DNA of 64,000 nt from Gorsachius magnificus (taxonomy: Eukaryota; Chordata; Aves; Pelecaniformes; Ardeidae). Positions 16,701 to 22,700 of the stretch are shown here, piece by piece; position 1 is the stretch's first letter; each line of letters starts with the position of its first letter. The notes below the pieces were generated by a model, which searched no databases, had not been told where the DNA came from, and saw only the letters and a program-made list of their open reading frames with translations. The translations under genes were made by a program, and so were the position numbers. Location of the stretch: contig CM067081.1 of the NCBI GenBank assembly GCA_034008185.1, positions 25,108,806 to 25,172,805 of the forward strand, read 5' to 3'.

Positions 16701-19700
16701 GGGGGCATTCACCTTGCCTCATTTTCTGTTCAAGTGTCTCATCTGAGCTAGTTGTTGAGGTTCTCTTAATAGCGAACAGAGAGAATTAGGGAACTCCAGG
16801 AGCTGATTTGTATCTTCCCTCCCAGGGCTCTTCCTTAGGATGGGTTGTAACACTCTTGGGATGTTACTGAACTCTGTGATCCTGTCAAGTACTCAGCTGT
16901 CATAGTGATAATGTTAATATGGTAAGAAAGTCTTCTGTGAGAAGACTTCAGTTATCCTCTCCCATATGTATTTTGGACATGAAGATTATAAAAATAAAAA
17001 TTAATGCACATTTGCCATTTGCTCAAGAAACTAGGTCTAACCTAGCTATAATATAATTTATCTTATATATTACAGGAACAGAAGTTGGAGAATATGGTGT
17101 ATTTATACTTTGAGCTGTGACTGAAGTTAGAATTTTAGGGTTAATTTTGAGAATCATTGCTTCTTAAGATAAAGTTACCTTATTTTTGACTAATAACTTT
17201 GAAGTCCTGATTTGGTATATTAACATGACAACCAAAACAAAAAAATCTTGCTGAAATAGCAAAGTCACTTTCAAAATTAATAGGTGCATTTTAGCTTTTT
17301 TTTTTTTTAGTGTAACATTTACAAGATTAGTGTCAAAGTAAGTGTTGACAAAGAGACCAGGTTCCAGTATTTGAACTTCTACGTTCTGTCTTGCTTCTTT
17401 TTATTTTTCACTTATTTTCACTTTTTATTTTTCACTTCCCAAGATGTAACTACCAGCAGATCCAGGCATTGCCTGTATTTTAACACAATTCTTTAGGGTG
17501 TTTGACATGTCTCTCAGTAAATATTGTGACTGCAGAATTTGAGGAGTAATAAGCATCTGAGCATTCACAAGTCCCAACAATCTCTGTGGGTCCTGTTGTT
17601 ATTATAATAGAGCTTAGTTATTTTCATGCTATCATTTCTTACTTAACTGACAGATATTAGCCCTGTCAGTCTGTAAAATTGTGGCCCATTTTTGGATTTT
17701 TTATACTGCTATAAGCGGACATTTGGTTGGTTTTAGTTCATTCATAAAACATGTCTGTAACAGCTTTAGAGAAAGGTTCCTTTTAAACTGCACTACTTAA
17801 CAATATGTTTTTGTTGGCTAACATGTATTGGACAAAATAGAGGAGTTATAGCTTTAAGGTTAGAGTAGCTCTATTAAGTTACTTTTATGTTGTGTAGACA
17901 TGCAAATAATACGGTATCGACATCCATTTCCTGTTTAGGCTTTGTACCCCTTGGTAACGTGCCTGCTTTGTGTCAGTCAGAAGCAGTTCTTTTTAAACAG
18001 ATGGCATATTTTCCTCAACAACTGCCTATCCAATCTCAAGGTTAGTATCTTCTGGTTTCAATACCGTATTAAAATGTCAGTAAGTACTGTTGATCTGTTG
18101 CAAATCTGCTTTAGGTAAATGGGCTGAATTATTGTTATTTTCTGATTCCGTACATAATTTTATTCCCAACAGCACAAATTCTTTAGCTGTGCAGATTTTT
18201 TCAATAACAAAAAAGTATAGTTGTACCTAGTTTGAATTTCTTCTGTTTCTCTAACTCAAACCAAGCCTTAGTCAAACAGCTGTGAAACAGGTGAGATTAT
18301 TGATGAAAGTTGTGAGCTTGAGTGACATACCAAAACTGACCCAATATTAACTTGCTTTTTTTCGCAAAGGTGTTCTCAAACAAAACACTTGTTATTACTT
18401 TATCAGAATGGAACTAGTTGCAGGACTCTGATTCCATTTTCTGTTCCATTTTGTTAAGTTGCTTTAAAAAAACCTAAACTATTTTAAGCTGTTTCCTCCA
18501 CATATCCATTCTTATTCCTTTACCATTTGTTAGATCTTTGAAGTTTAGACTAACTGTCCACTGCAATCTGCTGTGGTCCTGGCCAGCACTTGCTGTTCAA
18601 TACACATATGCTAGTTATAATTTCTACTCCTCCATGTTTCTTTTACTTGCGCAATAACTCATGTCCCATTCCACACTTGAAGTGGATCCATATGAAAGCA
18701 TAGTCCTGTGCCTTCCTGAAAAGGCCAATAGAAGAAGCACAGTGAAGTGGTTAGCACAAATGAAGGGCCTCCAAACTGCTGCTTGATGAACCAGTGGTTA
18801 GGAGGCTTCTGCAAATGGCACAGGTAGAATATGCAACCACTTTCTCAGCTCAGAGGCAAGCCACGGAGGGCATCTCTGTTCTCCAAAAGTTGTCTCTTTT
18901 CTCCAAAAGTTGAATTCCCAAGCTTGTTGACAAGGTATATACATCCTTTATTGCTGTTGCTTTCTTGCTGTATTTTTTTTCTGTCATAATGAAACAATTT
19001 TTATTGACTTTATTCATATGGATCCTACTGTTAGAATAGCTCTTCAAAATGTTCATAGTCTGTCTGAAGATTTCTTTCCGCCTGTACCTGAATTACTTAA
19101 TTTTCCTAAGGATGTATTAGAACCTTATTTGCAGAGATATTCAGAAAATAAACATGTTGTTACTGCAACTAATTTTATGGACTTTTATGAGGTTACACAA
19201 GCTTTAGAAAAGGCAGCCACAGCTGTAAGATCTCTGAGGAACCAGCTGGAAATACAGATTTTTCTGAAAATTAGGGAGAGCCTGACAAATTATTTGAAAC
19301 CATTAGAGAAAATATAAATAAAGTTGCTTCTACCTTACCAATTGAAAATCAAATTGGAATTCACTCTGCCACCTATAATTTGTTGATGTATACTTCAATA
19401 CTCATAGATTAATGTGGTGGCACATTCAATCTTTAGTTTGGGGAGAAGGTAAGGTAGCTGACTATGTGGCTAAATTAAGAATGTGGTTGGCCACTCCCCA
19501 GTACAGTGAAAGAAATGCCCCAACCATTGAAGCAATCGCTTCACCAGTCAGAATGGCACCTCAAAGCCCAAACCAAATTCACACAGCTTTAAGAGGAATT
19601 AAATCAACAAGAGAAATCCTTCCATTAGGAGAGTTGTGCACACCAGGACAGTATATGGGACTCCACAATCTTGTGCAGGCTCCCATGAACCACATAATGG

Positions 19701-22700
19701 ATCAGATTTCTCAAGAGCCTCCACACCCCGTAGAGCACAATCTCCTTCCCAAAACCATTAAGGTCAAGCACATGCTGGGAAAGCTAAAAGGTTTATATTC
19801 TAATAATATTTCTGATTTTAATATCAACTGGCAAATCTCTGACCTTAAGAAACAAACTTTTCTCTTGAATTAATAAAGGAGGCTCCTGCCAGGACATGGA
19901 AATATTTGACACCAGCCAAATTCTGGCCAAAGGACATTGCATACTATCCTGTTAAAAGCAGTGTAAAAGTTAATAAGTATCCTGGTTTTGAAATGGAACA
20001 TCTGTCATTAACTAAACTTTATTTACAAAAACCTATTAAGGCAGAAATCCTATATAGCAGAGAGTCAAAGCACTGTGTTTCATTTAGAGGCAAAGTTTTT
20101 CAGTGGGAACAACAGTTCCGTGTCTCCAAACTACATGGGACAAGGAGAAAGCTTCAGTACAATTTGAGCTGAGGGTGCAGAACTTACTTTACAAAGAATG
20201 GATCAGACAATGCCTGTCTCAGGAATGAATCCATGGGTACCAACACAATATCCCTTCGGCCTGAATGGGCCAGACCTAACACCATATTATTGGAAAACAG
20301 AAATGGAGGAATTAAAGAAAATGACCCTCACTCCTGGAAGTCCGGTCGCTCCTCCACCAATCTCAGAAGAGGCAGAGACATTGAAAAAGAAATTTCTCGA
20401 AGAGCAACAACAATGGATAAAATCCAGCAGCACAGATCTGGCAGAGCTCTGTCACCAACTATTCCCATGTTCAGAAGGCCCACATAGACTTCAACAAATT
20501 CTTTGGCACCGACAGCGAGTTGGGCACTGCCAGCAGTGGTGCAGGAACCACATTCAGTGCCAATAGCTCATGCTGGGAAAGTGAAGAACATGTCAGAGAT
20601 ATTAGGCCAAATACTCCTTGTCCTAATAGGATTACTGGCTGTGTTTTTCTTTTTTACAAAAATCCTTCAAATACTGAAGTGGCTCAATTGGTGGTGGACT
20701 TCTCTCAGTTTTCCAAAGGGACCCACGCTGTGTGCTTTCCAAAGTACTGGGCACCCAACCAGCATGCATTTGCACAGATCTTGCCTGTGGACATGCCCAT
20801 GATTTCCCTGCATGTTTCTCAGGCTTTTTATCATCTTCCTCTCAATCCTGCTTCTGCTGTGCAGCTTGCTGTTTCTGATGGAAAACTGGTCTACTATTTT
20901 CGGAAAGCTCCAATGATACTGGCCTCAGCCATTTTCTCCTCCATCTGTTCTCAACTGCCCTCGCAGCTGGAGAACCTTGTCCCTGGAATATTTGGACTTT
21001 TCCTTATAGGAATGACTTCCTCTGCCACACAAGCTCTTGTTACTGTATCTCAGTTAGCCACAGTGCCTGCTATTTTCTTGAAAGTTTTGGGGTAAGAATA
21101 AACTTTGATAAATGTACTCCACCACCTGTTGAAGAAATGAAATTCTTAGGACTGCAATTTACCAAGACTGACATGATGATACCTGGTGAAAAATGGATTG
21201 AAAGTAAACAGGTTATTAAACAAATTGATTGTAACAAATGTTATGATTTTAAAATCTTGCAAAGATTAATAGGCCACATAAACTTTGTCATACTTTTTAC
21301 TATTTATTCTAATCATGTGCTACAACCATTGTATGGTTTCAATTTTCTGTTCCGTATAAAGCTTTATCGTATAAAATTTATTGTCAAGGAGGTAAATGGA
21401 AATTGCAACCTGAGGACAGTGTTCCTATTCCTAGGCTTGTGACAGATGCCACGTTGGAAGTTGGAGTCATATCCCATATCATTGGCAGGTTGTCTTCCTT
21501 CCATTTTGCAGGACCTAGACCAATACACATTCAAGAACTACTGATGGTATCGGTTGCAGTTTCTTTGATCTGTGATTCAAATTTGTTGGCAGCCAAAATT
21601 TCAGCTCTTTGCCATGGAGAGTTGCACTGTTGCCCCAGGCAAATGTTATCTCAAGTCAAATTGTACTGGGATCCTTCAAAGTTTAACCCAGCGGATGGCC
21701 CAACACATGGGAGACCATCTGATTGTAATGCATATACTTGCACCCTATTCAGAAAGCCTTTAAAACTGTCACAGAAACAGAAAACTGCATATGACCAGAG
21801 AGACCCAAAGACAATCTTGTACCAGTTCAAAAATTTCCAAAAATAAACAGCAATCCAGACAGATAATCCAATTCAGTCCAGCTGATCCCAGATGCCATGT
21901 TAATTAGGCCAGTCTAAGCATCCACAGATTTTTGTCCTTTCACTTTTGAGTATGTGCAGTACATTTATTTATCTGCTGTGTTCTTCGTACAAGGTCTCAC
22001 CATAGGGCAACAGCTTTTGAATTGACAGAATCAACTGAAGATGAGGCTTTCTTTTCAGAGTCAAACTGAAATGATTTTTAAAATTGAGATTTTAATTGTA
22101 ACATGTATCTAAATTAACTAACTTTTTCATCCATTAAGTGCAGAACTTACTTTCTAATTTGTGCCTGAAGTTTATTCTTACGTTATTTCTTTCTCTAGAA
22201 TAAGGACCCAAAAATGGCTCGAGTTGCACTGGAATCTCTGTACAGACTACTGTGGGTTTACATGATCAGAATTAAATGTGAAAGCAACACAGCTACCCAA
22301 AGGTAAGATGCTGTATTTGTAATGATAATCAGGCCCTGTAGGGTCGATGTTGCCAGTGAAGAGGTTTTACAGTTCTCCTAAACTCCTTTGAGTTAAACCT
22401 ATTGCTGTTGTGAAATAAAAAACTCAACCGTACACAATAAAATATTCCCTTCTGTGGCACCATTGGTTATTCTCCCATCTATTAAAATTACTGTATAAAG
22501 TGTTTCTGTTTTCGGAAGAACTAAAAATCACTTTTTGCTTGGTTAAAGTTAGAAATATTTTTGTAGTGGCATGTCATTGACTGGTTTATTGTTACTTGTA
22601 ATGTAGTAATGAAATAAAATAATTACATTGAATTTGTAGCAAAAGATCAGAACAAGATGCCCCATTACATTTTCATTTCAAAGGAAATATATTGTAGTCT

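Follow-up and report, generated by a model that had tools for sequence, protein, structure and literature searches.

A decayed, near-full-length hepadnavirus in a furry-family intron of Gorsachius magnificus, most likely the published FRY element of Neoaves

Introduction

Does an intron of this bird's genome hold a nearly whole hepadnavirus, and is that virus one already known? The question is raised by a 64,000-nucleotide stretch of the Gorsachius magnificus assembly GCA_034008185.1 (contig CM067081.1, positions 25,108,806 to 25,172,805, forward strand), hereafter the window, in which a preliminary description had noted a near-genome-length hepadnavirus fossil inside a FRY intron. A Mesozoic-age hepadnaviral insertion common to Neoaves, eZHBV_C, was reportedly described by Suh et al. 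in 2013, and whether the fossil was that locus or an independent one had been left undecided. We conclude with high confidence that the 18.9-21.8 kb interval is what decay has left of a near-full-length avian hepadnavirus within a furry-family intron, the gene being likely FRY, and that it most likely corresponds to the published element called eZHBV_C, eAHBV-FRY or Avi.1-Neoaves.

Results

The interval was examined as ten separate stop-free pieces, which were scanned with Pfam. Seven of them matched hepadnaviral families, in viral order and all on the + strand; the pieces at 20168-20566, 20173-20487 and 20421-21095 had no hepadnaviral Pfam match. The pieces were also compared with profiles of relatives from outside this genome and with a second hepadnaviral copy in the same assembly (the C6 copy), to which they are 42-67% identical. 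These comparisons and the Pfam matches agree with the gene order first proposed, that is core, terminal protein (TP), preS/S, reverse transcriptase (RT) and RNase H, and the near-genome length of the fossil is confirmed. The viral features are as follows:

18931..19317 (+), core, N-terminal remnant; Hepatitis_core PF00906 E 5e-4 (short of the curated cut-off), 6ygi capsid structure E 4e-11, 43% of 70 residues identical to the C6 copy
19379..19873 (+), C-terminal part of core, then TP part of the polymerase, in one frame; PF00906 E 9e-16, DNA_pol_viral_N PF00242 E 8e-7 (slightly below cut-off)
19479..19589 (+), start of the polymerase frame; profile of outside relatives E 2e-10
19849..20172 (+), C-terminal part of TP; PF00242 E 1e-24, 53% of 97 residues identical to the C6 copy
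20168..20484 (+), preS remnant in two frames; profile of outside relatives E 5e-34 (20168-20563) and 1.4e-3 (20173-20484)
20488..20916 (+), S remnant over the RT frame, with one in-frame stop (TGA); vMSA E 2e-23 (20488-20802) and E 3e-3 (20803-20916, below cut-off)
20421..21095 (+), RT, palm part; 67% of 95 residues identical to the C6 copy
20879..21442 (+), RT catalytic-motif part (degraded) to the start of RNase H; DNA_pol_viral_C PF00336 E 1.5e-11, 47% of 135 residues identical to the C6 copy
21313..21846 (+), RNase H remnant; PF00336 E 4e-26, 42% of 153 residues identical to the C6 copy

The three matches below cut-off (N-terminal core, first TP and last S piece) agree with the others in position and order. 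The surface gene is nested in the polymerase, with vMSA at 20488-20916 in one frame and RT at 20421-21095 in another. The 6ygi match of the core piece came from a search of solved structures; 6ygi and 6ygh are, we assume, capsids of duck hepatitis B virus. Compared with that capsid, the window core is split, occupying at least two frames, and its middle (core profile positions 90-154) has no match. The reading frame changes at least five times along the polymerase pieces, which between them occupy all three frames. Neither a whole viral polymerase nor a whole core could be encoded by the window copy as it stands.

Relatives outside this genome were sought by protein searches with the window pieces, which returned 17 candidates for core/TP, 53 for RNase H and 9 for S. 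Fourteen metagenome proteins were accepted as relatives (four of core/TP, six of RNase H and four of S), and they share 56-84% identity with the window pieces, the alignments covering 32-100% of the query. Three of them, P0001 (65% identity, 93% of query), P0009 (81%, 46%) and P0011 (79%, 100%), report the same contig figures, namely two contigs of which the longest has 23,068 bases. Core/TP, RNase H and S therefore probably lie on one contig that is far longer than a 3-kb virus. The window's S piece (end at about 20800) and the proteins P0011 and P0012 stop at the same residue, which is what a stop passed down from a single insertion would produce; the other two S relatives, P0013 and P0014, end earlier. 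No relative was found among IMG/VR contigs with the RNase H piece, a FRY exon or the core/TP alignment, nor among GTDB genomes with the core/TP alignment.

Trees were built for RNase H (seven rows) and S (five rows). In the RNase H tree, P0005-P0007 form one supported group and P0009 with P0010 another; the S tree has no supported fork, and the window has no supported partner in either tree. One of the P0005-P0007 proteins lies on a 10.6-kb contig, and the three are perhaps another endogenous lineage.

As a control for chance matches, three profiles made from the 14 outside proteins were run against the 1,606 six-frame open reading frames (ORFs) of the window (E<=1) and against 31,274 ORFs from 20 windows simulated by a first-order Markov model. 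Nine window ORFs matched, all on the + strand and all within 19379-21843; in simulated sequence there were four matches, the best at E 0.086. ORFs of at least 120 amino acids number 15 in the window, six of them inside the fossil, and simulated windows hold between 0 and 8 each in total.

The fossil is embedded in chromosome C1 (218 Mb) with host exons on both sides. Exons were located by a splice-site scan combined with Pfam, and the intron and its neighbors are:

17939..18040 (+), upstream FRY exon; PF14222 (MOR2-PAG1_N 197-229) E 3e-9
18041..22198 (+), fossil-bearing intron of the furry-family gene; length 4,158 bases, phase 0
22199..22302 (+), downstream FRY exon, some 0.4 kb beyond the fossil; PF14222 (MOR2-PAG1_N 229-259) E 1.5e-6

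The MOR2-PAG1_N profile is thus continuous across the fossil, the preceding exon ending and the following one beginning at position 229, and the fossil makes up about two thirds of the intron. Its placement inside an intron, in sense with the host gene, stands as originally described. Fourteen exon candidates were tested up to 37.7 kb, and ten matched MOR2-PAG1_N (E<=1) on the + strand in rising profile order, with starts at 9747, 11883, 15079, 15266, 17939, 22199, 22797, 23840, 25663 and 37427; two of these matches are weak (9747, E 0.019; 23840, E 0.21). No match was obtained for the candidates at 7638, 10244, 10440 and 27564, nor for any of six candidates beyond 39 kb. Three long frames that read through 37001-47001 also gave no PF14222 match, probably owing to their many X residues; single exons were matched. 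A search of solved structures with a FRY exon returned nothing. Since MOR2-PAG1_N exon matches run in profile order on both sides of the fossil, we assign the host gene to the furry family, and the published locus makes FRY a likelier identity than its paralogue FRYL. The window also contains an RT fragment at 34940-35407 (-) (RVT_1, E 5e-14), presumably a CR1 element.

The ends of the fossil were set by local alignment with the C6 copy, with significance taken from 300 shuffles. On the left, homology begins at 18921 with a score of 41 (shuffle mean 23, best 39), and on the right it runs up to 21758 with a score of 40 (best shuffle 32); no shuffle reached either score. Homology therefore covers 18921-21758, about 2.84 kb. 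The earlier span of 18915..21846, about 2.9 kb, holds for near-genome length; its exact ends are ORF bounds. The virus itself probably begins close to 18.90 kb and ends close to 21.8 kb. Three features lie at the ends:

18873..18912 (+), 20-base tandem duplication (copies 95% alike) bordering the fossil on the left, in the region where direct repeat (DR) 1 is expected; Tandem Repeats Finder, positioned against the C6 alignment
18921..19017 (+), preC / former epsilon region, decayed; alignment with the left end of the C6 copy
21735..21758 (+), DR2 place, the last stretch that can be aligned with the right end of the C6 copy, whose DR falls inside this alignment

The C6 copy carries a DR 12-mer at both ends, which lies 7 bases outside the start of the left alignment and inside the right one. 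The window fossil would have opened near DR1, because its homology takes in the DR2 place (21735-21750) and sets in immediately inward of where DR1 is expected.

Family profile searches were extended to the whole assembly (1.18 Gb, 36 contigs) and to 14 control genomes. The assembly gave three matches each to PF00336, PF00906 and PF00242 and five to PF00695, and none of these families matched in any of the 14 controls. The matches fall at three loci: the window (C1), C6 at about 11634742-11637742 (-) and C12 at 1413681-1415420 (+). The C6 copy is near-full-length (about 3.0 kb) and scores close to living avian viruses. Its core frame is open over 266 amino acids (profile 1-273 of 273; 504 bits to capsid 6ygh), and it has a full avian epsilon (81.7 bits); TP and RNase H are in different frames, as are preS and S. 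Judged by the open core, the full epsilon and the DRs at its ends, this undated copy looks young. A CTR9 exon, recognized by a PDB match at E 2e-21, is 6.9 kb distant, and further exons up to about 1.2 kb from the copy look like CTR9 as well. The C12 copy is decayed: it consists of core and S pieces together with a TP match that falls below cut-off and is missing from the genome search results, and the whole-assembly PF00336 search gave no RNase H match there. The S sequences of the C1 and C6 copies share 39-41% identity with that of C12, and a RagA-like exon is found about 9 kb from the C12 copy.

Discussion

Our analysis indicates that the window fossil is very probably the known element, because Avi.1-Neoaves is the only FRY-flanked entry in Table 1 of PMC7955980; the choice that the preliminary description had left undecided thus falls very probably on eZHBV_C. 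According to that paper, Avi.1-Neoaves, also called eZHBVc and eAHBV-FRY, has FRY on both sides and is represented by 111 sequences in 110 species, with a minimum age of 85 and a maximum of 98 million years. A complete hepadnaviral genome flanked by FRY and inherited by 31 species is reported in PMC4272516, and 35 nearly full-length orthologues of the FRY element, absent from Galloanserae, were used as a clock calibration in PMC5604429. The published element and the window fossil are both near-complete avihepadnaviral genomes with FRY on both sides, and in host gene and viral content no difference was found between them. Near-complete hepadnaviral fossils had at first been called uncommon, a statement that should be softened in view of the 17 complete or near-complete elements reported in section 3.1 of PMC7955980.

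Several observations weigh against this identification. Orthology to eZHBV_C would rest on the host gene and viral content rather than on aligned junctions or an empty site, and Pfam does not tell FRY from FRYL. The end alignments are weak, the left score of 41 standing against a best shuffle of 39 and the right score of 40 against 32. Among the 20 of 24 repeat families listed, no repeat pair links the two ends, and no direct repeats were recognized there; the DR2 place does align with the C6 copy. Epsilon is likewise not recognizable and was rejected as a feature of the window (no Rfam match to epsilon; RNA fold z 0.40); its loss is expected of decay, and its presence is not required of a fossil. 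Finally, P0009 and P0010 are split from the window with support in the RNase H tree. The tails of these two proteins are out of frame relative to the window RNase H piece and may drive the split, which for this reason counts little against the orthology of P0009.

With these points in mind, an independent second hepadnaviral insertion in the gene that holds eZHBV_C is an alternative to which we assign a small chance. Section 3.4 of PMC7955980 records six cases of distinct hepadnaviral insertions at broadly equivalent sites, and the lack of a supported tree partner and the split from P0009 and P0010 would both be compatible with such an event. However, the published FRY element is already present in 110 species, the extent of frame breakage is in keeping with an insertion of great age, and the S end is common to two of the four outside copies. 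An even smaller chance is left to co-option of the fossil, or part of it, by the host as regulatory DNA, an exon or a small RNA. A coding exon lies about 0.4 kb away and several frames are open for 100-220 codons, but the polymerase frame changes, the S stop and the degraded RT motif argue otherwise, as does Rfam, which gave no match above chance level (two matches at E 1.1). That an exogenous virus was joined into a bird scaffold by misassembly or contamination is hardly credible: the evidence comes from the assembly and not from reads, yet the broken frames, the 42-67% identity to the C6 copy and the published locus all contradict it.

For the fossil as a copy of eZHBV_C, we propose the following history. 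A germ-line cell would have been infected, and linear double-stranded viral DNA opened near DR1 would have been placed into a chromosome break by host end joining. Linear double-stranded hepadnaviral DNA that is primed at DR1 and joined into host DNA is described in PMC5408681. The copy would since have been inherited with the intron and spliced out of the host transcript, presumably decaying through stops, frame changes and small insertions and deletions, with no sign of function.

The C6 and C12 loci are newer material, and C6 is a lead worth following. All of the elements considered here are avian hepadnaviral insertions. Clade IV in PMC7955980 includes endogenous elements near living avian viruses, such as the full-length Avi.28-Alauda and Avi.9-Melopsittacus. 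The C6 copy resembles these two more than does the window fossil, which is broken along its whole length; they are flanked by EPHA6/NSUN3 or CD109, and the C6 copy lies beside CTR9. Table 1 of that paper names neither CTR9 nor RagA as a flanking gene, and no CTR9-flanked avian endogenous hepadnavirus was found in the literature searched, including the titles listed from 2021 on.

In conclusion, one bird genome may hold three separate hepadnaviral integrations that differ widely in age: the FRY fossil common to Neoaves, an old decayed copy at C12 and a young, duck-virus-like copy at C6 that falls outside the main published catalogue. If the oldest and the youngest both opened at DR1, one route of linear-DNA joining would have been at work in avian germ lines from Cretaceous to recent times. 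We consider this proposal as a whole evenly balanced. As a copy of the published locus, the window fossil would be one more sequence for dating hepadnaviruses. Further, the presence of a young-looking, near-full-length copy in the same genome as an 85-98 million-year-old fossil would allow the integration route and the course of decay to be compared within one host.

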